From: a virus
IMG/VR virus record: IMGVR_UViG_3300045742_000176
Location: 1 to 31,368 of that record
Strand: one strand, 5' to 3'
DNA: 31,368 bases
The notes beneath the pieces are model-generated. The model had not been told where the DNA came from. It worked only from the letters and a program-made list of their open reading frames with translations, and ran no database searches. Positions within the stretch are counted from its first letter, which is position 1, and the number at the start of each line of letters is the position of its first letter. This document shows, piece by piece, positions 1 to 13,820 of this stretch. A program made the translations under genes and the position numbers.

Positions 1-1201
1 GGTCGACCTTGCGGGCGATGTTCGGGATGATCGAGAACAACTCACCCCGCTTCTTCCAGGACCCGCCGTACGCTGCCTCCTTCTCCAGGTGCAGAGCGCA
101 CAACTCGTCGAGGAACCGGCTCCGGATCCCGTTGGAGTCGATGACGTTGTCGCCGGCAATGATCTTCCCGGCGAGGACCCCCGCAGCGAACTCAGGCTTC
201 TCGACCTTCTCCCGCTTGGGCTGGAGGGAGTACCAGGTCGCTGCTTCGAGCCTGCTGTCGGAGAGCGGCTCGAGGTACTTGCGGTCGCCGCTCCACCACC
301 ACTGGAGCATCCGGAGCCAGGAGCGGAGCATCGGCTCCGTGAAGGCGTCGACAGCACTCGGCGGGCAGTACCCGTTGCGGATCATCTCCTCCAGCACGAA
401 CCAGGAGTCGAAGAGGTTCTGGAGCCGGTCGAAGTTCTGTCCCACGACGGACGCGTCGAACCTGGGGGACGGAGCCAGGTGGTCGAGGTTCCCCAGGGTC
501 TGGGTGCGGATCCGGTGGGCCTTGGCGAAGTGCAGGTCGTAGAGGTGGAACGAGGTGGTCGAGAAGTGGAGGGAGCCGGGCTTGGCACCTACCATGCCGG
601 CAGTGATCTCGAGGAGGGACGACCACTCGAACTGGTTGATGCCGGACCAGCCCCAGATGACGTCGTTGGAGCGGACGGCCACGTGCAGGTCCAGGGATCC
701 GAACCTGCTCAGGAACGAGAGCCAGTCGTTGCAGGGGATGTCCTTGCCGGGCTGGGTGTCGACCACGGGGTCCCAGATGGACATCACGGCCCGGCGGGAG
801 GCCGGTTCCTCCTTGAGGTGCTCCACGATGAAGCGCCACTGGTCCACGACCGCCGGGCGTCCATGGTCCTCCCAACGACGGAGGCGAGCGCCGTACCCTG
901 CGCGCCACTTCTGGCCGTCGTCCGAGAACTCCCGGACGCGAGGCAGGTAGTGCTCGAGCCAGTCGATGTCGTCGCGGCCCGAGAGCACCCACATGGTCTC
1001 GGCGATCTGGGCGGCGATGTTCGGCTTGCGGAAGTCGCACAGGATCTCGCGGTCGAGCGGCTCCAGCAGCGTGATGCCGACCTGGGTCATCTCCTGGGTG
1101 CGACCGGCCCGGCTGCCGATCTTGGTGCCCTCCTGCTCCAACTCGTTGAGCAGGCCGGGCAGGGCCTCGGTGACGGACGGGTAGACGAAGTTGTGGTACA
1201 C
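1..1201 (-). CDS. Thymidylate synthase homologue with extra C-terminal domain (3' end outside window)
   Basis: At least 400 residues; the C-terminus lies beyond the window. The GTG start at 1201 sits 3 nt after AGGAGGAA. Residues up to about 240 align with ThyA: the SRR phosphate-binding pair before SIWDP, catalytic Cys157 in IPCND (the usual following His is replaced by Asn), RSNDVIWG for the RSxDxxLG motif, Asn189 at the pyrimidine-recognition position, and FHLYDLHF for the HLYxNH region. Asn at that position is typical of dUMP rather than dCMP enzymes in this family. Residues from about 360 form a separate segment with KEAAYGGSWKKRGE followed by PNIARKVDR, resembling from memory the DUF1599 (nucleotide-modification-associated) domain. 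It would methylate or hydroxymethylate dUMP; sequence alone cannot say which. It lies 8 nt downstream of the pyrophosphorylase/kinase-like gene, presumably in one operon. Confidence 0.8.
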   Translation of the reverse strand, partial: MYHNFVYPSVTEALPGLLNELEQEGTKIGSRAGRTQEMTQVGITLLEPLDREILCDFRKPNIAAQIAETMWVLSGRDDIDWLEHYLPRVREFSDDGQKWRAGYGARLRRWEDHGRPAVVDQWRFIVEHLKEEPASRRAVMSIWDPVVDTQPGKDIPCNDWLSFLSRFGSLDLHVAVRSNDVIWGWSGINQFEWSSLLEITAGMVGAKPGSLHFSTTSFHLYDLHFAKAHRIRTQTLGNLDHLAPSPRFDASVVGQNFDRLQNLFDSWFVLEEMIRNGYCPPSAVDAFTEPMLRSWLRMLQWWWSGDRKYLEPLSDSRLEAATWYSLQPKREKVEKPEFAAGVLAGKIIAGDNVIDSNGIRSRFLDELCALHLEKEAAYGGSWKKRGELFSIIPNIARKVD

Positions 1202-1209
1202 GGTTCCTC

Positions 1210-2079
1210 CTAGATGGTGGTGTGCCAGTTGGGCGGCAGCACCGGGGCTGACTGTACCCCAGGATGGGCCGGAGAGTACGGCTTCTCTGGAGACGGCTTA
1301 CTCGCGAAACGAGCATACTTCGAGAACTCGCAGAGGCAGTTCTGGACGTCCATCTTCGAGAGGAAGTGGCCCCGGTTGCCGGACCCCCAGATCATGGGCG
1401 GGTTGTCGTGGTAGACGTCGATCTCCTGGTGCGCCCACTCGATGGCTTCCTCCCCACTCATGCCCAGCACCGCTGCCCCCTTGAGGGCTCCCGGCCCCGG
1501 AACGACGAAGTCGTCCTCCCGGAACTCGGTGCTGTAGCCGAAGTCAGTCAGGATCTGCATCGCGTTGAAGTACCCCATGCCCCGGCAGCGAGCGAGGGCC
1601 TCGAACCTCTCGGCCTGGGTGTCGGCCACGAGGAAGTCTGCGAGGCCCTCAGAGGCCCCTTCCAGCACGCCGAAGACGTGGTCGATCTTGTCCACGCCCT
1701 TCTCGGTGCCACCCCAGATCATGTAGGCTCCAGAGAACACCCGCTCGCCCCGTGCCTTGCGGGCATGCAGGTGCTCCCGGAACTCACCGGGACGCTTGAC
1801 CAGGCTGAGGTCTCCGTCGAACGACGACCAGGCTTCCGGCAGGTTCGTGATCCGGTAGAGCAGGCAGCGCGCCAGGAACTCGAACTCGTCGTCGCAGAGC
1901 AGGTCGGTGATGACGAACTGGGAGCCGGGGTCCAGCAGGCGGAAGACGTTGGTGAACTTCCGGGTGGCGAGGACCGGGTCGTCAGTCCAGGGCTGGGGAG
2001 CCCCGACCTGGCGCTGTTCCCAGATGCGATGGCGCTCGGACACGAAGTCCAGGAAGGTGAGCGCGGCGTCGACGTCCAT
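1210..2079 (-). CDS. Alpha-glutamyl/putrescinyl-thymine pyrophosphorylase or 5-hmdU DNA kinase helical-domain-like protein
   Basis: A 289-residue protein starting MDVDAALTFLDF; the ATG overlaps the upstream stop (TGATG). The helical core has KFTNVFRLLDPGSQF, RCLLYRITNLPEAW, FSGAYMIWGG, RCRGMGYFNAMQILTDF and DDFVVPGPGALKGA. From memory these match the DNA-glycosylase-related helical family named aGPT-PPlase or HMUDK helical domain, whose members act on 5-hydroxymethyl-uracil in phage DNA. No P-loop kinase motif is present, so this would be the helical domain alone. The position directly before a thymidylate synthase homologue supports a role in hypermodified thymine synthesis. Family assignment is by motif recall; the exact reaction is inference. 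Confidence 0.62.
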   Translation of the reverse strand: MDVDAALTFLDFVSERHRIWEQRQVGAPQPWTDDPVLATRKFTNVFRLLDPGSQFVITDLLCDDEFEFLARCLLYRITNLPEAWSSFDGDLSLVKRPGEFREHLHARKARGERVFSGAYMIWGGTEKGVDKIDHVFGVLEGASEGLADFLVADTQAERFEALARCRGMGYFNAMQILTDFGYSTEFREDDFVVPGPGALKGAAVLGMSGEEAIEWAHQEIDVYHDNPPMIWGSGNRGHFLSKMDVQNCLCEFSKYARFASKPSPEKPYSPAHPGVQSAPVLPPNWHTTI

Positions 2080-2273
2080 CACTGGTCGTACTCCACCTTC
2101 ATCCACATGCCGGGAGCGTACATGGCGACGACCTTGGCCACCATCCCGTCCTCCGTCTCCTCGGGAGTCCCGAAGACCCGGAGAGCGCCTCCGAGGTCCA
2201 TGTCCATGACGGCGTCGTGGGCGTCCTCCCACTCGTCGACATCTCCGCTGGACAGCAACACGCTGACGTTCAT
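2079..2273 (-). CDS. Hypothetical 64-residue acidic protein
   Basis: Starts MNVSVLLSSGDVDEWEDAHDAVMDMD and ends WMKVEYDQ. The ATG at 2273 is preceded by AGAAGG with 7 nt spacing; an alternative ATG at 2279 overlaps the polymerase stop (ATGA) but has almost no room for a ribosome-binding site. It lies between the polymerase and pyrophosphorylase-like genes and overlaps the latter by one base, so it is part of the same transcript. No family recognised. Confidence 0.7.
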   Translation of the reverse strand: MNVSVLLSSGDVDEWEDAHDAVMDMDLGGALRVFGTPEETEDGMVAKVVAMYAPGMWMKVEYDQ

Positions 2274-2275
2274 GG

Positions 2276-4291
2276 TCATCCCTTCTTGTACCTGTAGGTG
2301 GCGAAGCCGTCTCCGTCGACCGGCAGGCCCTCGGCCCACGGCGGCAACTCGCACATGATCTCCTTGACGAGGTCAACGTCCTTGGTGCCCTGGACGATCA
2401 CCTCGTCGTGCACGTGGGCGACGACCTCCAGCCCGGCCTTCTCGAGCCGGACGAGAGCCTCCGCCATGAGGTCGCGTGCCACGGCCTGGGTTGCGTTCTC
2501 GGCCAGCCGACCTCCGTAGGTCTCATCACGGCCAGGGTAGCGTGCCGTCGACGAGAACGTCAACACCTGTCGATCCTCCCACCGCTCCTTGTACTTGTTC
2601 CACTTCTTGCGGGTCTGGACGCCTGCCTTCCGGTACCCGATCGCACGGCCCGAGGGGAGCCGGAGAAGCCTGTCTCGGTTCCCGTGGGCCTTCTCAAAGA
2701 CCAAGTGGTCCCCGACGTCTCCTCCGGTCCGGAAACGGCGGTCGAGGGCTGCCCACAACTTGACGATGTTGGAGTTGGCGTCGCGCCACGGCCACACGAA
2801 CATCTCGTAGAGGAGTTCGTCGTCCACGTGGGCCAAGAGGACCTCCTCCCCGTCGATCTCGAGCACGTCCCGGTCGGTGGCCATGGCCTTGAGCGACCCG
2901 GCACCTCCGTTGTAGCCGAGAGCCAGCACCGCGATCTTGCCCTGAGCCCTGGTGAGTCCACCCATCTGTTTGGCGGTCTCGACGTAGATGTCCCGCTTGT
3001 CGCGGAAGGCCTGGAGCGCCCACTCCTCCCCGGCCAGCCACGAGATCACGACGGCCTCGATGGCGGAGTAGTCGACCACCACTCCGTCGATGACGAACAT
3101 GGGGCGGACGGACTTCTTCAGGGTGAGGGTGGGGACGGACTCCCCGGCCATGATCGCCCGGATCTCCTGCTCCATGACGCGGGCCACGGCCTCTGCCTCG
3201 TAGGCGGCGATCTCGGACTTGGGGACACCCAGGTCCCGCATGGCCTCCATGACGGCCTCGTCCTCCTCCGTCGGCTTGAAGGAGGCACGCGGCAGGTTGT
3301 GGGGCTGGGGGCCACGACCGGCCCAGCGCCCGGTGTGAGCGCCGTGGTAGGCGAGCGTACCGTGGAGACGCCCTTCGACGTGGGTTTCGAGGACCGCAGA
3401 GAACTTGGCGGGAGCAGCCAGCGCCAACTCCTGCCGCAACTCCAGAACCTCCCGAACGTCGGCCGGGAGGTCGGCCCGGAGCAACATCCGCTCGACGGTC
3501 TCGGCCTGGAGGTTCGGCACCCCGAAGCCACGCTCCTCGAGCCAGGCGCTCATCTGCTGGACGGAGCCGGGATTCTCGACCTCCCAGAGCGTGAGTTCGC
3601 GGACCCTCTCCTTGTCGTCCTCCGTCGCTCGAGCGGCCTGGGCCTGGGCCTTGCGAGCCAGCCCGAGGTCGACGGCGATCCCCCGGTCGTTGATCGCCTG
3701 GTCGGCCAGGTACACCTGGCGCTCGGTCTCGGTCGGCCACCCACCCTCCTCGAGGAGGATGGTGTCGATCTCCTTGAGGGTCTCGGTGTCCTGCTCGCAG
3801 TAGGCCACGAACTGAGCCCACTTCTCCGGGTGGTCCTCGGGCCGGTTGAACCCGCCCTTCCGGTTGGGCTTGCAGAAGAAGTTGATGAGGGCCGATCCGG
3901 CTTCGTCCTTCGGCGTCGCCCCGAGAGCGTGTGCCATCTTGGCCAGGGACTTGGGGTACCCGTGAACGGCGCCAAGGGCCTGGGTGTCACGCCAGTGTTC
4001 CGGAGGCAGGAAGCGGGTGGGGAGATCCATGCCTCGACGGCCAGCGAACTCGCTGAAGCAGATGCGCTCGAACGGAGCGTTGTGGGCCACCTTGGTGACC
4101 TCCGGGTCCCACAGGCCCGGGATGGCGAAGACCTCGTCCTCAGTCGTGGCCGTGATCGTCGGCCCGTCGTCCAGGATCCAGGAGGCCATCAGGATCCGGA
4201 AGTCCGGGCACCGGACGTACCTGTAGACGCCGGTCTTCTTGAGGTTGACCCGGCTCCGGGTCTCGATGTCGATGTGGAGGGTACTGCTCAC
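2276..4291 (-). CDS. polA-like: Family A (Pol I-like) DNA polymerase with 3'-5' exonuclease domain
   Basis: A 671-residue replicative polymerase. The N-terminal exonuclease domain shows the DxE motif in HIDIETRS, KVAHNAPFER and a YCEQDTE segment. The polymerase domain has GTLAYHGAHTGRWAGRGPQPHN, motif A VVDYSAIEAVVISW (Asp407), motif B in the form QGKIAVLALGYNGGAGSLKAM and motif C HVHDEV (Asp629). No 5'-nuclease domain is present, as usual in phage versions. The GTG start at 4291 follows GAGAGGAACC. It is the genome copying enzyme, placed downstream of the ssDNA-binding protein and upstream of the base-modification genes. Confidence 0.95.
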   Translation of the reverse strand: MSSTLHIDIETRSRVNLKKTGVYRYVRCPDFRILMASWILDDGPTITATTEDEVFAIPGLWDPEVTKVAHNAPFERICFSEFAGRRGMDLPTRFLPPEHWRDTQALGAVHGYPKSLAKMAHALGATPKDEAGSALINFFCKPNRKGGFNRPEDHPEKWAQFVAYCEQDTETLKEIDTILLEEGGWPTETERQVYLADQAINDRGIAVDLGLARKAQAQAARATEDDKERVRELTLWEVENPGSVQQMSAWLEERGFGVPNLQAETVERMLLRADLPADVREVLELRQELALAAPAKFSAVLETHVEGRLHGTLAYHGAHTGRWAGRGPQPHNLPRASFKPTEEDEAVMEAMRDLGVPKSEIAAYEAEAVARVMEQEIRAIMAGESVPTLTLKKSVRPMFVIDGVVVDYSAIEAVVISWLAGEEWALQAFRDKRDIYVETAKQMGGLTRAQGKIAVLALGYNGGAGSLKAMATDRDVLEIDGEEVLLAHVDDELLYEMFVWPWRDANSNIVKLWAALDRRFRTGGDVGDHLVFEKAHGNRDRLLRLPSGRAIGYRKAGVQTRKKWNKYKERWEDRQVLTFSSTARYPGRDETYGGRLAENATQAVARDLMAEALVRLEKAGLEVVAHVHDEVIVQGTKDVDLVKEIMCELPPWAEGLPVDGDGFATYRYKKG

Positions 4292-4437: not shown

Positions 4438-5007
4438 TCAGCCCAGCATGTCCTCGTCGTCGCCGTCGTCGTCCAGCGGCTCGAAGTCGTCCTCGGCGCG
4501 CGACCGGCCACCCAGGTAGTCGCCGTCGGCGATCTTCTGGATGTGGTTGAGGCCGAAGGAGACGCCCTTGTTGCCCTGCTGGTTGAACGGGAAGGCGTTG
4601 ATGGACACACGGGCGTAGCACCCGCTGTAGACCTCGCTCGAGTCGAGGATCGGCTGGACCGACGCGTCGACGACGCCCGGCTTGGTCTTGGACGAGACCG
4701 ACATGAACATGTGGCCCTCGTACTCCGGGTTGCGCTCGAGGTCGGCGTCCTCGTCGCCGTCGTGCAGGGTCATCTTCGGGTTGGCGGGGATCTTGCCGCC
4801 GAAGGTCTTCGCCTTGCCCTGCTCGAGAGCGGCCTTCTGGGCCTTCTCGATCGCCGCGAGCGTCTTCTTGTCGCTCTTGGGGATCAGCAGGACGCAGGAG
4901 TACTTCTCGGGCTGGTCGTCCGAGTTCGAGAACGGCTCGAACACGTGGACGTAGGACAGCCGGACCTTCCCGGTGACGACCTTGGTGTCGGATGCGGTGG
5001 TGGCCAT
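4438..5007 (-). CDS. Single-stranded DNA-binding protein (DUF2815 family)
   Basis: A 189-residue protein starting MATTASDTKVVTGKVRLSYVHVFEPF. The OB-fold-like body includes EKYSCVLLIPKSDKKTL, KTFGGKIPANPKMTLHDGD and YSGCYARVSINAFPFNQQGNKGVSFGLNHIQKI, characteristic of DUF2815 phage SSBs. The C-terminus is an acidic tail ending DDDGDDEDMLG, typical of SSBs that recruit partners. The ATG at 5007 has GGAG 6 nt upstream; an upstream in-frame TTG at 5019 is less likely. It protects ssDNA during replication. Confidence 0.88.
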   Translation of the reverse strand: MATTASDTKVVTGKVRLSYVHVFEPFSNSDDQPEKYSCVLLIPKSDKKTLAAIEKAQKAALEQGKAKTFGGKIPANPKMTLHDGDEDADLERNPEYEGHMFMSVSSKTKPGVVDASVQPILDSSEVYSGCYARVSINAFPFNQQGNKGVSFGLNHIQKIADGDYLGGRSRAEDDFEPLDDDGDDEDMLG

Positions 5008-5549: not shown

Positions 5550-5672
5550 TCAGCGGAGGAGGAGGATGAACATGATGACGAGGATCCAGAACGCGGACCC
5601 CATGACGATGCCGACGAGGCAGCCCTTGGCCGCGCCCAGGGCCTCGTCACTGCTGACGGGCTCGAGGTTCAC
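5550..5672 (-). CDS. Small single-span membrane protein, 40 residues
   Basis: GTG at 5672 overlaps the stop of the DUF4406 gene (GTGA) and has AGGAG 5 nt upstream. The product starts MNLEPVSSDEALGAAKG and continues as one hydrophobic span of about 20 residues ending FILLLR. The short cytoplasm-sized N-terminus and single span fit a small inner-membrane phage protein. The function is unknown; holin-like action is possible but its place in the replication arm argues against it. Confidence 0.7.
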   Translation of the reverse strand: MNLEPVSSDEALGAAKGCLVGIVMGSAFWILVIMFILLLR

Positions 5673-6136
5673 GACAACTCCTGGGCAGCACGCTCGAGCC
5701 ACTCGGCCTCGGACCGGACCGGCATCTTGAGGAGCCCGCCGACGTTGATCTCGTTGCGGGCTCCGGTGGACTTCCACCAGTCCGGGAGGTAGCAGATGCC
5801 GTAGCACGTCAGCATCTGTACGAGGTCCTCCCGGAGGAAGTCGACGTAGTGGACCTTCTCGGGCCGGTCGATGGAGACCTCTGCCGGGTTCACCACCTCA
5901 TACCCGGCGCTGCGGAGACGCTCGGAGACGGAGTTGAAGAGCGGGTAGTTGGAGTCCGGATACCCGGTCATCGGCCCGGCCACGTAGAGACGACGGACCT
6001 TGGTCGGCTCGCTGGTGGCGAACGGGTCGTGGGTGGGGCCGTCCACGCAGACGTAGTCCGGCGGGTCCAGCCTCATGTCGTGGTGGGTCTTGCCGCCGCA
6101 CCAGCACCTACGCTGGTCGTTCACTTCGATGTTCAT
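5669..6136 (-). CDS. DUF4406 (nucleoside deoxyribosyltransferase-like) protein
   Basis: A 155-residue protein. The core YVAGPMTGYPDSNYPLFNSVSERLRSAGYEVVNPAE, followed by DFLREDLVQMLTCYGICYLPDWWKSTGARNE, is the recognisable DUF4406 / 2'-deoxyribosyltransferase-like fold. An N-terminal extension, MNIEVNDQRRCWCGGKTHHD, carries CxC and His residues that may bind metal. The ATG overlaps the stop of the dCMP deaminase gene (ATGA), linking it to nucleotide metabolism. Catalysis is not proven for this family. Confidence 0.82.
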   Translation of the reverse strand: MNIEVNDQRRCWCGGKTHHDMRLDPPDYVCVDGPTHDPFATSEPTKVRRLYVAGPMTGYPDSNYPLFNSVSERLRSAGYEVVNPAEVSIDRPEKVHYVDFLREDLVQMLTCYGICYLPDWWKSTGARNEINVGGLLKMPVRSEAEWLERAAQELS

Positions 6137-6570
6137 GACGGTTCCTTCAGGGGACGGGTCCACTCCCAGCCGGGAGTGACGACACGGTGGATGGGGGTGC
6201 CCTGGATGGTGCGGAAGCACCCGCCGCAGGGCCGGTCGGTGACGTAGAGGGTGGCGCCGTCCATCTCGCTCCAGGAGGCGCGGATGACGACGTTCTGCTC
6301 GGCGTGGAGAGCGATGCAGGAGCCAAGGCCGGTGTCGTACGAGGAGAGCGGCTCGACCTCTTCCAGTGACGCACGCCCACGAGGACACGCTCCATCCGTC
6401 AGACAGCCCTTCTCGCCTGCCGGAGCGCCGTTGTAGCCCGTGGCCACGATGCGGTGGCGCCAGTCGAGGAGGACCGCGCCGACCCGGCGGCGAGTGCAGT
6501 CCGCACGCATGCTGACGGTGTCAGCCACGAGCAGGCCCCACTCGTCCCAGGTCGGTCGCGGGTCCTTCAT
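6133..6570 (-). CDS. dCMP deaminase
   Basis: A 145-residue zinc-dependent cytidine/deoxycytidylate deaminase. Visible motifs are RRVGAVLLDWRHRIVATGYNGAPAG, the catalytic HAE (His89-Glu91), and PCGGC (Cys115, Cys118). It converts dCMP to dUMP, the substrate of thymidylate synthases, so it feeds the synthase homologue at the end of this arm. The ATG at 6570 overlaps the upstream stop (ATGA). It stands in a tightly coupled block with the DUF4406, small membrane and DUF2800 genes. Confidence 0.93.
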   Translation of the reverse strand: MKDPRPTWDEWGLLVADTVSMRADCTRRRVGAVLLDWRHRIVATGYNGAPAGEKGCLTDGACPRGRASLEEVEPLSSYDTGLGSCIALHAEQNVVIRASWSEMDGATLYVTDRPCGGCFRTIQGTPIHRVVTPGWEWTRPLKEPS

Positions 6571-6803
6571 CCCAGCAGGTCCTCGTCGTCGCCGAGGAGG
6601 TCGTCCTCGGGCTCGGCCTCGGCCTCGGGCTCGCCGTCGCCGGTCAGCACCGAGGCCCAGTTGCGGCCCTCGGTCCAGATGAACGACTTGATCTCGTCGC
6701 GGGTGGCCTGCCGACGCTTGCCGCCGTCCCCGTCGATCTCGGCGGCGATGGCGATGCGCTGCTCGTCCGAGACCTCCACGGTCTCGTAGATGTTGACCTT
6801 CAC
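6567..6803 (-). CDS. Hypothetical 78-residue protein with acidic tail
   Basis: GTG at 6803 overlaps the stop of the DUF2800 gene (GTGA). It starts [43 protein letters not shown] and ends with an acidic low-complexity tail [15 protein letters not shown]. This C-terminus is close to that of the SSB (DDEDMLG), suggesting a shared docking partner. Function unknown. Confidence 0.72.
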
Positions 6804-7999
6804 AGTAGGTCGTCTCCTTCCAGGGCCGCGAACTCCCTCGCGGCCTCGATGTTGGGCGTGATGGAGGGACGGCTGTCCGACTCCAGTGCGAGGGACGGGC
6901 GTCCCTCTGACTTCGCGACGATGCCGGTGTCCTCGAGCAACTCGGTGAACTTCTCCTTGCCGAGCAACTTCTCCATGTCGCCGATGCCGCGAGGCTTCCG
7001 GGGCGACATGATCTCGTCCACCGTGTACCCTGCTCCGAGCAAGGTCTCCTGGAACTCCTCCGGCTCGACCACCCGGCGCTGGCCTCCGGACTGGACGACC
7101 TTGTACCCGGGGATGGCGATGCCCTCGGAGTAGGCCATGTTGAGCGCGGCCTGCTCGAAGGCATTGAGCCAGTCCTGGATCATCTTCCGCTTGCCGAGGA
7201 CCTCCGCGACCTCACCGGCCGAGAGGGTCTCCGGCTTGGCCTCGAAGTCCGTCGCGAAGACGGCCTCCAACTGGGCCTGGCACCGGCCCGACGCCGGGCA
7301 CCAGCGGCACGCGGTGTCGGAGGGGCCGAACGGGGCGTCGTCGGTCAGGGCCGACTCAGCGATGGGAAGGATGGACGCGTGCCACTCGCGGAGAGCGTCG
7401 GCGGTCATCTCGTCCGTCAGCACGTGATCCATCCGGGGCTGGAAGACGGTGATGCGCACCAGCCTGGTCTCCCCCAGAAGGTCCCCGTACTCCATGAGCG
7501 CGCCGAAGGCGTAGATCCGCAACTGCGGGTTGCCTCGAGCCTCCACTGCGACCCCGGCCCCGTACTTCAGGTCGATGATCTCGATGTGCTCCTCCGACAC
7601 GATGACGGTGTCGGAGGTGCCCTTGCCCTCGTCCGGCAAGCCGGTCGGGAGGCGCTGCTCGAGGAAGAGGATGGAGTTGGGGTAGAGGGCCAGCCGGTCG
7701 CGGATCAAGTCCACGTAGGTGTCGGTGTGGCGCTCCATCTCGACCTCGACCTCATCCTTGCCGATGACGTCTGCGTTCTCCTTGGCCCACACGGCCCGGC
7801 GGTGGACGAACTGTTCCTTCGTGATCTTGCCGAAGGCCAGCGAGGCCTTCAGTTCGCCGAGAGCGTGAGCGATGGTTCCCTCACGTGCATACTCCGACTC
7901 CTCCTCCGGCGGGACCTGAGCCTCCATACGCACAGAGGCAGGACACTCAAGCCACCGCTCGGAGGCGGAGGGGGAGAGCCGGGCGTGCTCACCAGGCAT
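6800..7999 (-). CDS. DUF2800 PD-(D/E)XK nuclease (RecB/Cas4-like)
   Basis: A 399-residue protein. The N-terminus [16 protein letters not shown] (Cys19) and [10 protein letters not shown], then [21 protein letters not shown] with the D...(D)xK nuclease signature, and the C-terminal [10 protein letters not shown] triad resemble the Fe-S cluster arrangement of RecB/Cas4/AddB nucleases. Family DUF2800 is common in phages alongside DUF2815 SSBs, as seen here. It likely acts in DNA recombination or end processing. ATG at 7999 has AAGGAACC upstream. No Cas proteins or repeats are nearby. Confidence 0.86.
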
Positions 8000-8961: not shown

Positions 8962-9713
8962 TACAGGACCTCGAGCCCCACGGGAGAGTCGGGGGTCGGG
9001 AGCAGTTGACCAGGCAGGTCTCCGTCGTCGGGGATCAGGGCCATCACGGCGCTCCAGCGGTCGAAGTAACCCTCGTGAAGCCGGTAGCCGTAGAGGCCCT
9101 CGAAGCGGTGGAGAAGAGCCCTGAGGTACGTCTCGTACGAGCCACAGGTGCCCTCGCCGAGCAGGGTCTCATAACGCTCCCGGTGCAGGTGCAGGTACCG
9201 GCAGGCGATGTCGGTGAACACCACGGCCTTGGGCCGGGCCGCGAACGTCTTGTCGAGCAGGCCCCGGTGCTTCTCCCCGTCCCTGGTCTTCCACGCCGTG
9301 AGGTCGCCGAAGTCGAGCATGACGAGGTCGCATCCGTCGAGGTTGAGATCGCCGTAGGCGTCCGCCATGGAGACGTGGACCATGGGGTTGCCCGCGAACA
9401 GACGATCCAGGTGCGTGACCGCGTCCCAGTTGTACTCCCCGATGTTGTGCTCCACGGTGTTGAACAGGTGCTCGATCATGAGGGCCTGCGCACCCATCCC
9501 GCCGAAGCACTCGTGCACGTCGGTGATGTCGTCCCCCTTCCGGTAGACCTCCTTGAGCGAGTTGAGAGCCAGCCAACCGGCAGTCAGGTGTCGACCGGCC
9601 TGGTTGGGGGAGCGGAGGACGTAGTCCAGGAACCACGAGTCGCGGTCGGGCGCAGGCCCTTCGACGGTGATGCCGAAGCGCTCAACGACGGACAGGATGG
9701 TGGAGTCGGTCAC
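8961..9713 (-). CDS. Putative Rossmann-fold (methyltransferase-like) protein, 250 residues
   Basis: GTG at 9713 overlaps the primase-helicase stop (GTGA). The segment DVHECFGGMGAQALMIEHLF resembles a SAM-binding motif I, and DLVMLDFGDLTAWK resembles the motif IV region of class I methyltransferases, with a beta strand VVFTDIACRYL after it. No DPPY/NPPY or PCQ signature of DNA methyltransferases is seen. It could be a divergent methyltransferase acting on DNA or a nucleotide, or an unrelated Rossmann protein. It ends at the 88-bp element. Confidence 0.5.
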   Translation of the reverse strand: MTDSTILSVVERFGITVEGPAPDRDSWFLDYVLRSPNQAGRHLTAGWLALNSLKEVYRKGDDITDVHECFGGMGAQALMIEHLFNTVEHNIGEYNWDAVTHLDRLFAGNPMVHVSMADAYGDLNLDGCDLVMLDFGDLTAWKTRDGEKHRGLLDKTFAARPKAVVFTDIACRYLHLHRERYETLLGEGTCGSYETYLRALLHRFEGLYGYRLHEGYFDRWSAVMALIPDDGDLPGQLLPTPDSPVGLEVL

Positions 9714-12067
9714 AGCAGGTCCTCCTTGCGGACGAAGATGGTCTGGGTCCCGTATCCCGGGAAGTGTCCATGGCCGGTCGACACCCAGCCGAGTTCCCGG
9801 AGCGACTGGGCGATCTCCAGCAGGTCGGTCCGGCGCGGAGGGATCCGCTGACCGAGGGCCTCGTGCCACAACTGCCGGGTGCAGGTGCGGTCCACGACCA
9901 CGTCTCCCTCGGCCTCGAAGCCCTGGTCCCGGTCGACCTTCCACTGCATGCGGGCCATGGGCGACTTCGTCCACCAGTCCATCGGCACCGGCGTGGCGAG
10001 GAAGTCCTCGATCACGCCCATGTTGGTGTCCTCCTCGAGGAACGGGTCCCGCTCGAGTTCGGCCAGCAACGACTCCTCGTCGTTGAGGTAGAGCCGCTCC
10101 CCGGACTTGTAGATGGCGACGGCCTCGGCCCACAACTGGTCGACGTAGGCCGGGGTGAGGGCTTCGAAGTCCACCTTCTCCAGACACCGGACCATGAGGA
10201 ACCGGCGGTTGCCGCGCTGCCTGGTCAGGAAGGTCTCGTCGTTGGTCGACGACCAGATCACGCACTGCCTGGGGTGCACCATGGTGTCCCGGTCGTACGG
10301 CATCCGGAACACGTCGTGAGTCCGGGTCAGGAACTCCTTGAGCGCGTCATTGTCGGACTTGCGGAGGGAGTGGCCCTCGTCCGACACAACGATCCAGGAG
10401 CGGTGCATCGCCAGGAGGGTGTCCTTGGAGTGGATGGGGCCGAGGGTGTAGTGGTAGGTGTGGCGCTCGTCGATCCCGACGTGGGCCAGCCTCTCGATCC
10501 AGGTGGACTTGCCCAGGCCCTCGTCTCCCTGGAGGACCAGGGTGTGGTCCCACTTCAGACCGGGCTCGTAGACGCGAGCCACAGCCGCTGCGAGCACCCG
10601 GCGAGCCACCAGCCGGTTGTAGCGGGTGTCGGCCGCTCCGGGGAGGCAGGTCTCCACACGTTCGACGCCGTCCCACTCCAGGGCTTCCAGGTAGTCCAGG
10701 ATGGGCGACACACGCCGCTTCCCCACCGTGGTCTGCACCAGGTGGTCGACCTGCTCCTTGGAGGCCCGGAACCTGTAGTGGCGCTCGATGTAGTCCCGGA
10801 GTTCCGCATGGTCGATCCCGTCGAAGGTCCGGCTGAGCGGCTTCACCTTCCGCCACGGCAGGTTGCCGGCAGCCTCGGGAGACTGGGTGAGCAGGTTGAA
10901 GTACAGGAGGCTGAAGACCCGGTCGTTGTTGCGGATGAGGTCCCAGTTGGCGATCTCGTCCACGAAGCGGCCACGGTTGTTGAGCACGAGCCGGGCGCGC
11001 CAGGAGTTGTCGACGTCCTCGGCATCCCCGTCCTCCTCGTCCACCCACTCGCCGAACTCCGCCGTCTGCTCGTCGAACATCGCCGCGACCACGCGGGCGT
11101 CCTGGGTGGCCTGTGCCAGCATGAGTTCGTGGGACGGCAACTTGTTGACCGGGGTGCCCGGCTTCGCGCTCTCGTCCTCCACACCGTACCAGTGGAGACG
11201 GACGAGGTCGAAGGAGGAGCAGGTCTGGCCGTAGGCCGGGTCGTTGGCATGGTGGGAGAAGTAGAGACCGGGAGCCCCGGCGATGGGGCCGAACCCGGCC
11301 TCGGAAGACGCTCCTGCGAGCGAGTAGCGGTCGTCGTTGTCCTTGACGTACGGCAGCCCGTAGGCCTCGATGAGATCGTCCAGGTCCTCGTACACCCGGT
11401 TGAACGCACCCACCACTCCGTCGATGGCGAACGGGTCTCGCTTGTTGCGGCCCGGCTTCGGCATCGGGAGTTCGGACAGGTCGCGGTCGTACTCCACCAG
11501 CAGGTCGTCCACCGGGATCGGGACGCCGTCGTTGGACCACGAGTCGTACCACTCCGGCTTGCGGGTGGCGGGCTTGAACATGAAGCGGGCTGCCTGGAAG
11601 GTGCCGGTGTCGAACTGGTCCTTGCCCAGCCGAGCGGCCAGGGCCTCCGTTGCCATGACGTACTCGTCCGGCGCCATGTCCCGGTCGGTCTGCACCAGCA
11701 GCCGGTAGCGGGGCTCGGACGGCGTGGACGAGTGCGTGGTGTGGATGACGTAGGTGTAGTCCGCCAATGTGGCTTCAACCACGAGGTCGAACGCGTCCTC
11801 GGGGTTGTCGATGTCCATGGCGAGAACGGCGCTTCGACGGGCGACCGACCTGTTGTCGCGGTGTACGTCAGTGCACGGCTCCTCGGCCCCTGGATGCACC
11901 TTCTCGGTACGCTCCAGCGTGGCGAGGATGTAGTTGCCGCACTCCTTGCGCCGGGCCGGGTGGGCCACCCACTCCAGGATGGTGTCCCAGGTGACGGTGT
12001 CAGGTCGCCAGTGCCGGTCGTTCGGCTTGTCTGCGTAGGCTACGGGGAACTCCGTCACAGGAGGCAC
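9710..12067 (-). CDS. Primase-helicase (VapE-like, superfamily 3-type ATPase)
   Basis: A 785-residue protein. The N-terminal AEP-like primase region has LAMDIDNP (Asp85, Asp87) and HTTHSSTPSEPRYRLLVQ. The C-terminal ATPase carries Walker A GDEGLGKST (Lys520), Walker B WIVVSDEGHSLRKSD and the VapE signature VIWSSTNDETFLTRQRGNRRF. It should prime and unwind DNA at the fork. GTG at 12067 has GGAG 7 nt upstream; an in-frame GTG at 12058 overlaps the previous stop (GTGA) and is a reasonable alternative. Confidence 0.88.
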   Translation of the reverse strand: MPPVTEFPVAYADKPNDRHWRPDTVTWDTILEWVAHPARRKECGNYILATLERTEKVHPGAEEPCTDVHRDNRSVARRSAVLAMDIDNPEDAFDLVVEATLADYTYVIHTTHSSTPSEPRYRLLVQTDRDMAPDEYVMATEALAARLGKDQFDTGTFQAARFMFKPATRKPEWYDSWSNDGVPIPVDDLLVEYDRDLSELPMPKPGRNKRDPFAIDGVVGAFNRVYEDLDDLIEAYGLPYVKDNDDRYSLAGASSEAGFGPIAGAPGLYFSHHANDPAYGQTCSSFDLVRLHWYGVEDESAKPGTPVNKLPSHELMLAQATQDARVVAAMFDEQTAEFGEWVDEEDGDAEDVDNSWRARLVLNNRGRFVDEIANWDLIRNNDRVFSLLYFNLLTQSPEAAGNLPWRKVKPLSRTFDGIDHAELRDYIERHYRFRASKEQVDHLVQTTVGKRRVSPILDYLEALEWDGVERVETCLPGAADTRYNRLVARRVLAAAVARVYEPGLKWDHTLVLQGDEGLGKSTWIERLAHVGIDERHTYHYTLGPIHSKDTLLAMHRSWIVVSDEGHSLRKSDNDALKEFLTRTHDVFRMPYDRDTMVHPRQCVIWSSTNDETFLTRQRGNRRFLMVRCLEKVDFEALTPAYVDQLWAEAVAIYKSGERLYLNDEESLLAELERDPFLEEDTNMGVIEDFLATPVPMDWWTKSPMARMQWKVDRDQGFEAEGDVVVDRTCTRQLWHEALGQRIPPRRTDLLEIAQSLRELGWVSTGHGHFPGYGTQTIFVRKEDLL

Positions 12068-12405
12068 GTCCCGTCTCCGTCACAGATGGTGCCCAGGCAG
12101 AACTCGCACTCCTCGTCCTCGGCCTTGAGCCGGGGGATGGCGGGGTTGCCCACGTCCGTCTTCACCAACCTCTCGAGCACCGACTCGGGGATGTTGTCGG
12201 GGTCCGGGATCTCAGGGGACACCCAGACCTCGCCGTTGGGCTGGAGCCGGTCATCCAGCGCGGCGGCCCGACCAACCTTACCGTGTGCGGTCAGCCGCTC
12301 CACGTAACCTGCGGGGTTCAGCAGGTTGACGCCAGAGTGACCCACCACCCAGCCCTGGCGGGTCAGGTACTCGAGGCGGCAGAGAGTGGGTGTAGGGATG
12401 GCCAT
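12055..12405 (-). CDS. Hypothetical 116-residue protein with C-terminal Cys cluster
   Basis: Starts MAIPTPTLCRLEYLTRQGWVVGHSGVNLLNP; the ATG overlaps the helicase stop (TGATG). The C-terminus CEFCLGTICDGDGTCLL has four Cys that could bind zinc or form a cluster. It sits between the SF2 helicase and primase-helicase genes, so a replisome accessory role is plausible. No family recognised. Confidence 0.72.
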   Translation of the reverse strand: MAIPTPTLCRLEYLTRQGWVVGHSGVNLLNPAGYVERLTAHGKVGRAAALDDRLQPNGEVWVSPEIPDPDNIPESVLERLVKTDVGNPAIPRLKAEDEECEFCLGTICDGDGTCLL

Positions 12406-13820
12406 CAGATCGGGCTCTCCAGGAAGGCCAGCAGGTCCTGCTGGGTGTCGGACTTGGCGACGAGCCGGTTGCGGATCAGGTGGTCGATCGACTTCTTCGC
12501 CAGGATCATGTGGATGACGACGGGGTGCTTCTGGCCCTGTCGGGCGAGCCGCTTGTTGCCCTGGTCGAAGTGCTCCAGGTCCCAGGTGGGCGACGTCCAC
12601 ACAGCGGTGTGGCCTCCGTGCTGGAGGTTCAGCCCGTGCCCGGCGGACGCCGGGTGGGTCAACAGGATGGGGATCTCCTGCCGGTTCCACGCCTTGACGA
12701 CGCCGTCCTCCTCCAGCGTGTGGGCAGCGTCGCCGAAGTGCTTGAGGATCATGTCGCGCTCGGCGGTGTACCTGTAGAACACCAGCAGCCCGCCCACGCG
12801 AGGTGACTCCGCGATCTCCTCCAGTGCCTTGATCTTCTCGCTGTGGAGGACGGTGTGCTCGTAGTTCCGGATCTCCGCGTCGTCCACATACAGGAAGCCT
12901 GCGGTCATCTGGGAGAGCCGGGACGTCAGGATGGCCGCGTTGCCGGCAGTGTGGACCTCTCCACCGAACAGGTCCTTGAGGTTGACGGTGAGTTCGTCGG
13001 AGAACTCCCGATACGCCTTGCGGACGGCAGGAGGCAACTCGATCGCCACGTCGTTGAACGTCAGCGGAGGCAGGGTGATCCGGCCCTCCGACTTCATGGC
13101 GAGGCAGATGTCCTCGATCCGCTCCTTGATCCGGTCGATGGAGAACTCCCGGGGAGCCCACGACACAGCGACCTCGCGAGTCCCGTTCCAGATCGTCTGG
13201 TCCACCACGAAGTAGCGATCACGGTACCCGGAGAACGACTTGCCCAGCCGTTCTCCTCCGTCCAACAGCGAGATCTGGCCCCACAGGTCCAGGTAGCCGT
13301 TGGGGGCCGGGGTGCCGGTGAGGCCCCAGACGTTGGCGGTGGTCTCCTTCTTGATCTGGCGCCGGGCTGCCTTCCACCGGACGGAGCCCCGGTTGCCTCC
13401 GGACTTGAAGCCGCTGAGTTCGTCGATCACGAAGGTCCGGAACGGCTCGCGATCACGGGGCTTGAGGGAGTCCAGGTCCCGGAGGTTGTCCCGGCCCAGC
13501 ACCACGATGGGAGCGTCGGACAGCAGCGCTGCCTTCCGCTTGGCCGGGTCCCCAGCAGCCACAGCGATGCCCAGGTCGGGACGCCACCTCTCCTGCTCCA
13601 CGTCCCACACCTCCTCCGCTACCCGCTTGGGTGCGGTCACGAGAGCGGGTAGATGACGGTCCTCGAGGGCTGCGAGAACGCTTGCGGTCTTGCCGAGGCC
13701 CATATCCATCATCAGGGCCGCTCGAGGCTGCCGACGCAGGAAGTCGACCGCCAGGTCCTGGTACTCGTGGAACTGGCCGAGCGGGTGGTGGCTGGAGCAG
13801 GTGTCACAGACCTCCGTCAC
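12405..13820 (-). CDS. SF2 / SNF2-type DNA helicase
   Basis: A 471-residue two-lobe helicase. Motif I is DMGLGKT (Lys44), motif II VIDELSGFK (Asp133-Glu134), motif III GLTGTPAPN, and the second lobe has LLVFYRYTAERDMILKHF, THPASAGHGLNLQ and the arginine-finger helix FDQGNKRLARQGQ. This is the usual phage SNF2-like helicase. The N-terminus has CDTCSSHH, a possible small metal site. GTG at 13820 overlaps the previous stop (GTGA). Confidence 0.93.
   Translation of the reverse strand: MTEVCDTCSSHHPLGQFHEYQDLAVDFLRRQPRAALMMDMGLGKTASVLAALEDRHLPALVTAPKRVAEEVWDVEQERWRPDLGIAVAAGDPAKRKAALLSDAPIVVLGRDNLRDLDSLKPRDREPFRTFVIDELSGFKSGGNRGSVRWKAARRQIKKETTANVWGLTGTPAPNGYLDLWGQISLLDGGERLGKSFSGYRDRYFVVDQTIWNGTREVAVSWAPREFSIDRIKERIEDICLAMKSEGRITLPPLTFNDVAIELPPAVRKAYREFSDELTVNLKDLFGGEVHTAGNAAILTSRLSQMTAGFLYVDDAEIRNYEHTVLHSEKIKALEEIAESPRVGGLLVFYRYTAERDMILKHFGDAAHTLEEDGVVKAWNRQEIPILLTHPASAGHGLNLQHGGHTAVWTSPTWDLEHFDQGNKRLARQGQKHPVVIHMILAKKSIDHLIRNRLVAKSDTQQDLLAFLESPI

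Follow-up and report, generated by a model that had tools for sequence, protein, structure and literature searches.

In some phages a fraction of the thymine is exchanged for a bulkier base that resists cutting by host enzymes, and the aminoethoxymethyl base of Salmonella phage ViI is derived from serine. The ViI base is given as 5-NeOmdU and the base of Pseudomonas phage M6 as 5-NedU (PMC6449724). Phage ViI has a dUMP hydroxymethylase, a PF18723 protein, a PF18724 protein, a PLP enzyme of family phrog_3650, and a P-loop kinase, with the genes scattered over 157 kb. In M6, a thymidylate synthase (TS) homologue, PF18723, PF18724, a PLP enzyme, and a P-loop kinase belong to a cluster that lies upstream of the DNA polymerase and includes a dCMP deaminase (PMC9476957, in which the hypermodification cassette is listed). 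A TS homologue paired with aGPT-PPlase1 near PolA has been described for M6-like phages and pelagiphages, and has been read as DNA hypermodification in both, the HTVC023P-type pelagiphages of SAR11 hosts among them (PMC9599517). Some pelagiphages with that pair have a glucosyltransferase nearby (PMC9599517, PMC9476957), and the actinophage Tonitrus is noted to carry a five-gene set (PMC11955845).

Related gene sets occur in other named phages. Glutamicibacter phage Montesquieu (OV696619, MONT_38-53) has the order PolA, aGPT-PPlase1, and TS with a C-terminal extension, followed by aGPT-PPlase2, an "ACC deaminase" (PLP), and two Ploopntkinase3 proteins. In GenBank this phage is already annotated with aGPT-PPlase of clades 1 and 2 and with a TS/pyrimidine hydroxymethylase, and no published base analysis of this phage was found in the literature searched. 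Brevibacterium phage LuckyBarnes and Microbacterium phages such as QuadZero also encode a PF18723 protein and a TS homologue, and the LuckyBarnes TS homologue has the same fused domain as ours. However, these phages have two TET-associated glycosyltransferases (TAGT) instead of the transferase and kinase, and in QuadZero the TS homologue is likely a dCMP-type enzyme.

We analyzed a virus record from IMG/VR (31,368 bases, 66% G+C) over its whole length, referred to here as the window; the record has no sequence to the left of position 1. The left half is a replication block running leftward, with a helicase (12405-13820), a primase/helicase (9710-12058), an exonuclease (6800-7999), a dCMP deaminase (6133-6570, minus strand; PF00383, E 1.7e-16; phrog_2369, E 1e-42), a Gp2.5-like single-strand binding protein (4438-5007), and a family A DNA polymerase I (PolA; 2276-4291, minus strand; PF00476, E 1.3e-10). 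By eye, the zinc motifs of the deaminase (HAE and PCGGC) are intact. The right half encodes an endolysin, terminase, portal, and major head protein. Adjoining the deaminase in the leftward block is a DUF4406/nucleoside 2-deoxyribosyltransferase-like protein (5669-6136), for which a role in the nucleotide pool is possible. Across the first 4.3 kb the nearest named phages are Montesquieu and LuckyBarnes, and the host is therefore likely to be actinobacterial.

At the left end, and separated from PolA only by a called 66-amino-acid open reading frame (2079-2279, minus strand), are two minus-strand genes encoding a PF18723 protein (1210-2079) and a TS homologue (2-1201; PF00303, E 7.9e-23; phrog_3676, E 4e-60). 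The TS gene starts with GTG at position 1201 and runs for 400 amino acids without a stop before the window edge, so that its 3' end lies outside the window. This GTG comes 8 bases after the TAG stop of the upstream gene (1212-1210). Because the Shine-Dalgarno sequence of the TS gene, AGGAGG (1206-1211, minus strand; read directly as TAGGAGGAACCGTG), overlaps that stop codon, translation of the TS gene is likely coupled to that of the PF18723 gene. The original prediction, made from the letters alone, had proposed a thymine hypermodification gene pair beside the DNA polymerase and had connected it with the dCMP deaminase. The pair, its position, and the deaminase were all confirmed, and a hydroxymethylase-type TS homologue with an HMUDK_hel protein near PolA and a dCMP deaminase gives the thymidine-hypermodification reading good support at the sequence level. 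From the gene identities, the hydroxymethylase residues, and the downstream genes of the nearest relatives, we put the probability at roughly 80% that these two genes make up the first half of a ViI/M6-type thymidine-hypermodification cassette, probably in a phage of an actinobacterial host. This kind of cassette is already known from M6, ViI, the pelagiphages, and the Montesquieu annotation, and the window adds one more case. Less ordinary are a C-terminal fusion to the hydroxymethylase and the finding that PF18723 stands beside a kinase or a TAGT and never both.

The 289-amino-acid helical protein matched PF18723 (HMUDK_hel/aGPT-PPlase1; "5-hmdU DNA kinase, helical domain") at E 7e-48, with residues 8-260 aligned to positions 6-276 of the 281 in the model (163.8 bits against a cut-off of 25). 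It also matched phrog_2396 (E 2e-48), the family of M6 gp55 (E 1e-108) and ViI gp160 (E 1e-155). These matches, like those of the TS homologue, lie well outside what chance would give. PF18723 was absent from all 14 control genomes, and the sequence patterns used found no relatives in bacterial genomes. An AF2 model built from only 7 sequences had a pLDDT of 75, and its best Foldseek match was MjOgg, with DUF2419 and MUTYH among the next, all at nonsignificant E values of about 1 to 4. This weak likeness of the model to HhH DNA glycosylases, although not significant, would agree with a role in recognizing DNA and exposing bases.

We then counted decorating enzymes on the same strand within 8 kb of PF18723. 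Among 90 distinct contigs, 49 had a P-loop kinase, 20 had a TAGT-like glycosyltransferase, and none had both (Fisher p 5e-9, a value that is only indicative because the contigs are related). Every PF18723 contig bearing the transferase also had a kinase (30/30). On the PF18723 tree, a minimum of 8 switches between kinase and glycosyltransferase was counted, with ViI set to kinase by hand (gp67 = PF18748) and phiW-14 by assumption. Whether a kinase or a TAGT is present, almost every TS homologue linked to PF18723 belongs to the dUMP type. We predict from this gene content that the TAGT-linked contigs represent an hmU-glycosylation branch that is mutually exclusive with the kinase branch. TAGT genes of PF20691 beside PF18723 and a hydroxymethylase, with no 5-hmdU kinase family present, were noted in L126 (9656-10657), L133 (9443-10411), L115 (9461-10324), L003 (15548-17159), and L004 (6293-8187).

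The Pfam name of PF18723, and the adjacency of its gene to the P-loop kinase in M6-like phages and many contigs, would be explained if the helical protein belonged to the 5-hmdU kinase and were not a recognition factor of general use. We consider this rather unlikely. The complete genomes of LuckyBarnes and QuadZero each hold PF18723 and two TAGT genes with no PF18748 or PF18751 kinase, and PF18723 occurs with TAGT in the 20 contigs above, where kinase and TAGT are never together. Additionally, what is called 5-HMUDK has served as one enzyme supplied with ATP (PMC6457204). The idea that the helical protein is itself the kinase was not supported: the P-loop protein is the kinase family, with PF18748 matching ViI gp67 (E 2.6e-116) and M6 gp54 (E 7.7e-18), and the helical protein is also present in kinase-less phages. 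Because PF18723 is common to two ways of decorating the base, the data agree better with a protein that recognizes hmU-DNA or exposes its bases than with a kinase component, which suggests that the protein is a shared hmU-DNA factor. We propose, tentatively and at somewhat less than even odds, that PF18723 is a general factor and that kinase/transferase and TAGT modules have been swapped around a core of hydroxymethylase and PF18723, a core that in the window carries an Nmad1-like fusion. No description of such module exchange was found in the literature searched, with two primary papers beyond its reach. This gives a testable view of a little-understood protein, in which PF18723 is constant and the decorating enzymes (kinase and transferase, or glycosyltransferase) are exchanged.

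Within the window, which is cut off at its left end, there is no P-loop kinase, transferase, or PLP gene, and an exact 26-mer search found no contig overlapping the left edge. Four IMG/VR contigs, L005 to L008, extend beyond the point where the window ends. Identity to the window pair is 72% (TS) and 80% (PF18723 protein) in L005, 67% and about 77 to 78% in L006, 57% and 47% in L007, and 56% and 54% in L008. In all four the TS gene is followed by an amino acid:DNA transferase (PF18724/phrog_3271; recognized by PF18724 in L005, L006, and L008 and by a custom profile in L007), a PLP enzyme with the ACC-deaminase fold (PF00291, phrog_3650; best PDB match 1j0a), and a P-loop kinase (PF18751). Each also has a small open reading frame resembling that at 2079-2279 in the equivalent spot. 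In the TS tree, the window falls in a five-member clade (support 99/96) and within a three-member clade (100/100). Because all four other members of the 99/96 clade carry transferase, PLP enzyme, and kinase, we expect the full set in the window virus, just left of the window, and hold this to be very probable from sequence comparison. These same four relatives bear out the original prediction, which had placed a possible P-loop kinase left of the window.

We infer the missing part rather than see it, because some relatives with the same fusion carry glycosyltransferases instead. Among the 30 other contigs with a fused TS homologue, 15 have transferase, PLP enzyme, and kinase, 4 have transferase and kinase, and 1, a short contig, has the kinase only; the remainder have none of the three. 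A TAGT-like gene lies near the pair, with the kinase absent, in 6 of the 30. The missing left part might encode a TAGT with which the virus glycosylates 5-hydroxymethyluracil, as is predicted for LuckyBarnes and for L048, L056, and L039. However, this is very unlikely for the window virus, since its four nearest relatives (TS identity 56 to 72%) have the transferase, PLP enzyme, and kinase, and TAGT was absent from all three of the nearest relatives tested.

We examined the active site of the TS homologue in a residue alignment with E. coli ThyA, SPO1 gp29 (annotated as a dUMP hydroxymethylase), M6 gp58, ViI gp66, and the phiW-14 enzyme. The catalytic cysteine, Cys157 (codon at 731-733, minus strand), corresponds to E. 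coli Cys146 and is followed by Asn where TS has His. In E. coli numbering, E58, Y94, R126, C146, R166, S167, D169, N177, H207, and Y209 are kept, the set that binds dUMP and carries out covalent catalysis. W80 and the C terminus of TS matter for whether the product is methyl or hydroxymethyl. ThyA W80, W83, L143, and H147 are V, F, D, and N in the window protein, and the C-terminal PVAI is replaced by unrelated sequence, so that with V80, N147, and no PVAI the protein does not conform to ThyA. The same losses are seen in SPO1 gp29, M6 gp58, ViI gp66, and the phiW-14 enzyme, and T4 td retains L143 and H147 (its row was misaligned near position 80 and was read there from the printed sequence, VWDENY). 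The dCMP hydroxymethylase T4 gp42 has D143, T147, and, replacing N177, the Asp of an FRND motif (position 177 lies beside an indel in T4 gp42 and QuadZero and was read from the printed sequences, FRND and YRAD). The window protein has N at both 147 and 177, against T147 and Asp177 in T4 gp42, and thus reads as a hydroxymethylase of the dUMP type; a dCMP-specific enzyme was rejected on these two residues. The best PDB match by sequence was the MilA hydroxymethylase, ahead of all true synthases. The same was found with an AF2 model of the complete L005 homologue (E 8.9e-16). Judged by these residues and matches, the window enzyme is predicted to be a dUMP hydroxymethylase and not a thymidylate synthase.

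SPO1 gp29 shares this active-site pattern, and one could suppose that the virus makes only 5-hydroxymethyluracil, as in SPO1, with no further decoration and with the helical protein doing something else. This is highly improbable, as PF18723 adjoins the hydroxymethylase and, in relatives, the decorating enzymes, and a kinase or TAGT is nearby in 69 of the 90 PF18723 contigs. One might also suspect a normal thymidylate synthase that supplies nucleotides, beside a gene unrelated to DNA modification, in that dCMP deaminase and ThyA are frequent in phages and the gene is usually annotated as thymidylate synthase. This is barely credible when the protein shows the hydroxymethylase-type replacements of W80, L143, H147, and the C-terminal PVAI and the neighbor is a PF18723 protein, the family missing from the 14 control genomes.

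With the pair read as the first half of a hypermodification cassette, a pathway can be proposed. The dCMP deaminase would convert dCMP to dUMP, and the TS homologue would convert dUMP to 5-hydroxymethyl-dUMP. After phosphorylation, the neighboring PolA would build the hmdU nucleotide into DNA where some of the dTMP would otherwise go; no enzyme taking hmdUMP to hmdUTP was identified within the window. On the replicated DNA, a P-loop 5-hmdU DNA kinase would (pyro)phosphorylate the hydroxymethyl group at chosen sites, an amino acid would displace the (pyro)phosphorylated group through the action of the amino acid:DNA transferase, and the PLP enzyme would trim the product, most likely to a ViI-like 5-(2-aminoethoxy)methyl-dU or something closely related. 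This decorating step would be encoded just left of the window, and the PF18723 protein would most likely serve whichever decorating enzyme follows as an hmU-DNA recognition or base-access factor.

In the actinophage cassettes, both the transferase and the PLP enzyme fall into the families found in ViI, whereas M6 has members of other families. By phmmer, the transferase gave E 2e-19 against ViI and no match against M6, and the PLP enzyme gave E 8e-34 against ViI and 6e-9 against M6. The PLP lysine is conserved in 9 of 9 aligned sequences. M6 differs from these cassettes in having a radical SAM enzyme, Nmad5, a PLP enzyme of phrog_7093, and a transferase of phrog_6364. No radical SAM gene was found near the actinophage cassettes, a further likeness to ViI. 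Because the transferase and PLP enzyme are of ViI families and radical SAM is absent, a ViI-like aminoethoxymethyl-dU made from 5-hmdU is the predicted base; at 26 to 30% identity, which does not fix substrate or product, we favor it only slightly over other outcomes. The "possibly new chemistry" of the original prediction thus gives way to a ViI-like base as the default. The arrangement differs from that of ViI in that the genes of the window relatives form a single cluster beside PolA, the kinase is PF18751 rather than PF18748, and the window TS homologue carries a C-terminal domain; of the cassette, no more than the two leading genes lie in the window itself. It differs from Montesquieu, whose pair is only 34 to 38% identical in protein to the window pair, in that eight genes, the ribonucleotide reductase beta subunit among them, separate TS from the transferase in that phage. 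These results add a set of clustered thymidine-hypermodification cassettes of the ViI type, carried by phages whose hosts are apparently actinobacterial; one carrier, Montesquieu, is in culture and so can be tested.

The extra C-terminal domain noticed at the YGGSWKKR stretch is real. Complete relatives of the TS homologue are 470 to 593 amino acids long, compared with 264 for E. coli ThyA, and about 130 to 230 of these belong to the fused domain. In the window the domain begins at about residue 363, with the YGGSWKKR stretch as its start (2-115, minus strand; FLDELCALHLEKEAAYGGSWKKRGELFSIIPNIARKVD...), and most of it is cut off; a custom profile of the domain scored 58 bits on the window. Across 29 aligned sequences, the invariant residues are K, YG, S, G, N, RK, DR, DT, D, and Y. 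The fused form matched no Pfam or PDB family, and PF07659 (DUF1599), the "nucleotide modification associated domain 1" (Nmad1), gave nothing on it at E values up to 10 when tested directly; 1 of the 29 domain members matched PF07659, at E 0.13. The domain also occurs as a separate gene beside hydroxymethylases in L138 to L141, L146, L147, L156, and L171, and the stand-alone homologues in L140, L141, and L147 match PF07659 weakly (E 7e-5, 3e-4, and 0.03, none reaching the curated cut-off). By sequence, the fused domain would thus be remotely Nmad1-like. A dTTPase is induced by phiW-14 infection (PMC5977210), and by analogy we would guess at nucleotide-pool cleaning as the role of the domain. 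No description of the TS/C-terminal-domain fusion was found in the literature searched, with two primary papers beyond its reach.

Several related loci showed variations. The TS homologue encoded by QuadZero gene 50 (L004, 5094-5849) has Thr147 and Asp177 as in T4 gp42 and is likely a dCMP hydroxymethylase, beside a PF18723 protein and two TAGT genes; the pattern in L107 resembles it. In an otherwise similar cassette, L114 has in place of the PLP gene a 298-amino-acid protein (10538-11434) with no Pfam match, the start of which resembles a Rossmann oxidoreductase and which may carry out a different tailoring step. Public annotation and PHROGs (phrog_800) list 5-hmdU DNA kinases under the name "terminase small subunit", as with ViI Vi01_061c (L025, 4204-4866) and M6 gp54 (L017, 21686-22249). 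In Montesquieu, the tandem Ploopntkinase3 proteins MONT_39 and MONT_40 (L002, 18428-19621) are annotated as thymidylate kinase and ABC transporter. Two P-loop kinases are likewise listed for ViI in the SW16-7 paper (PMC10458263), and such paired kinases might divide the two phosphorylations between them.
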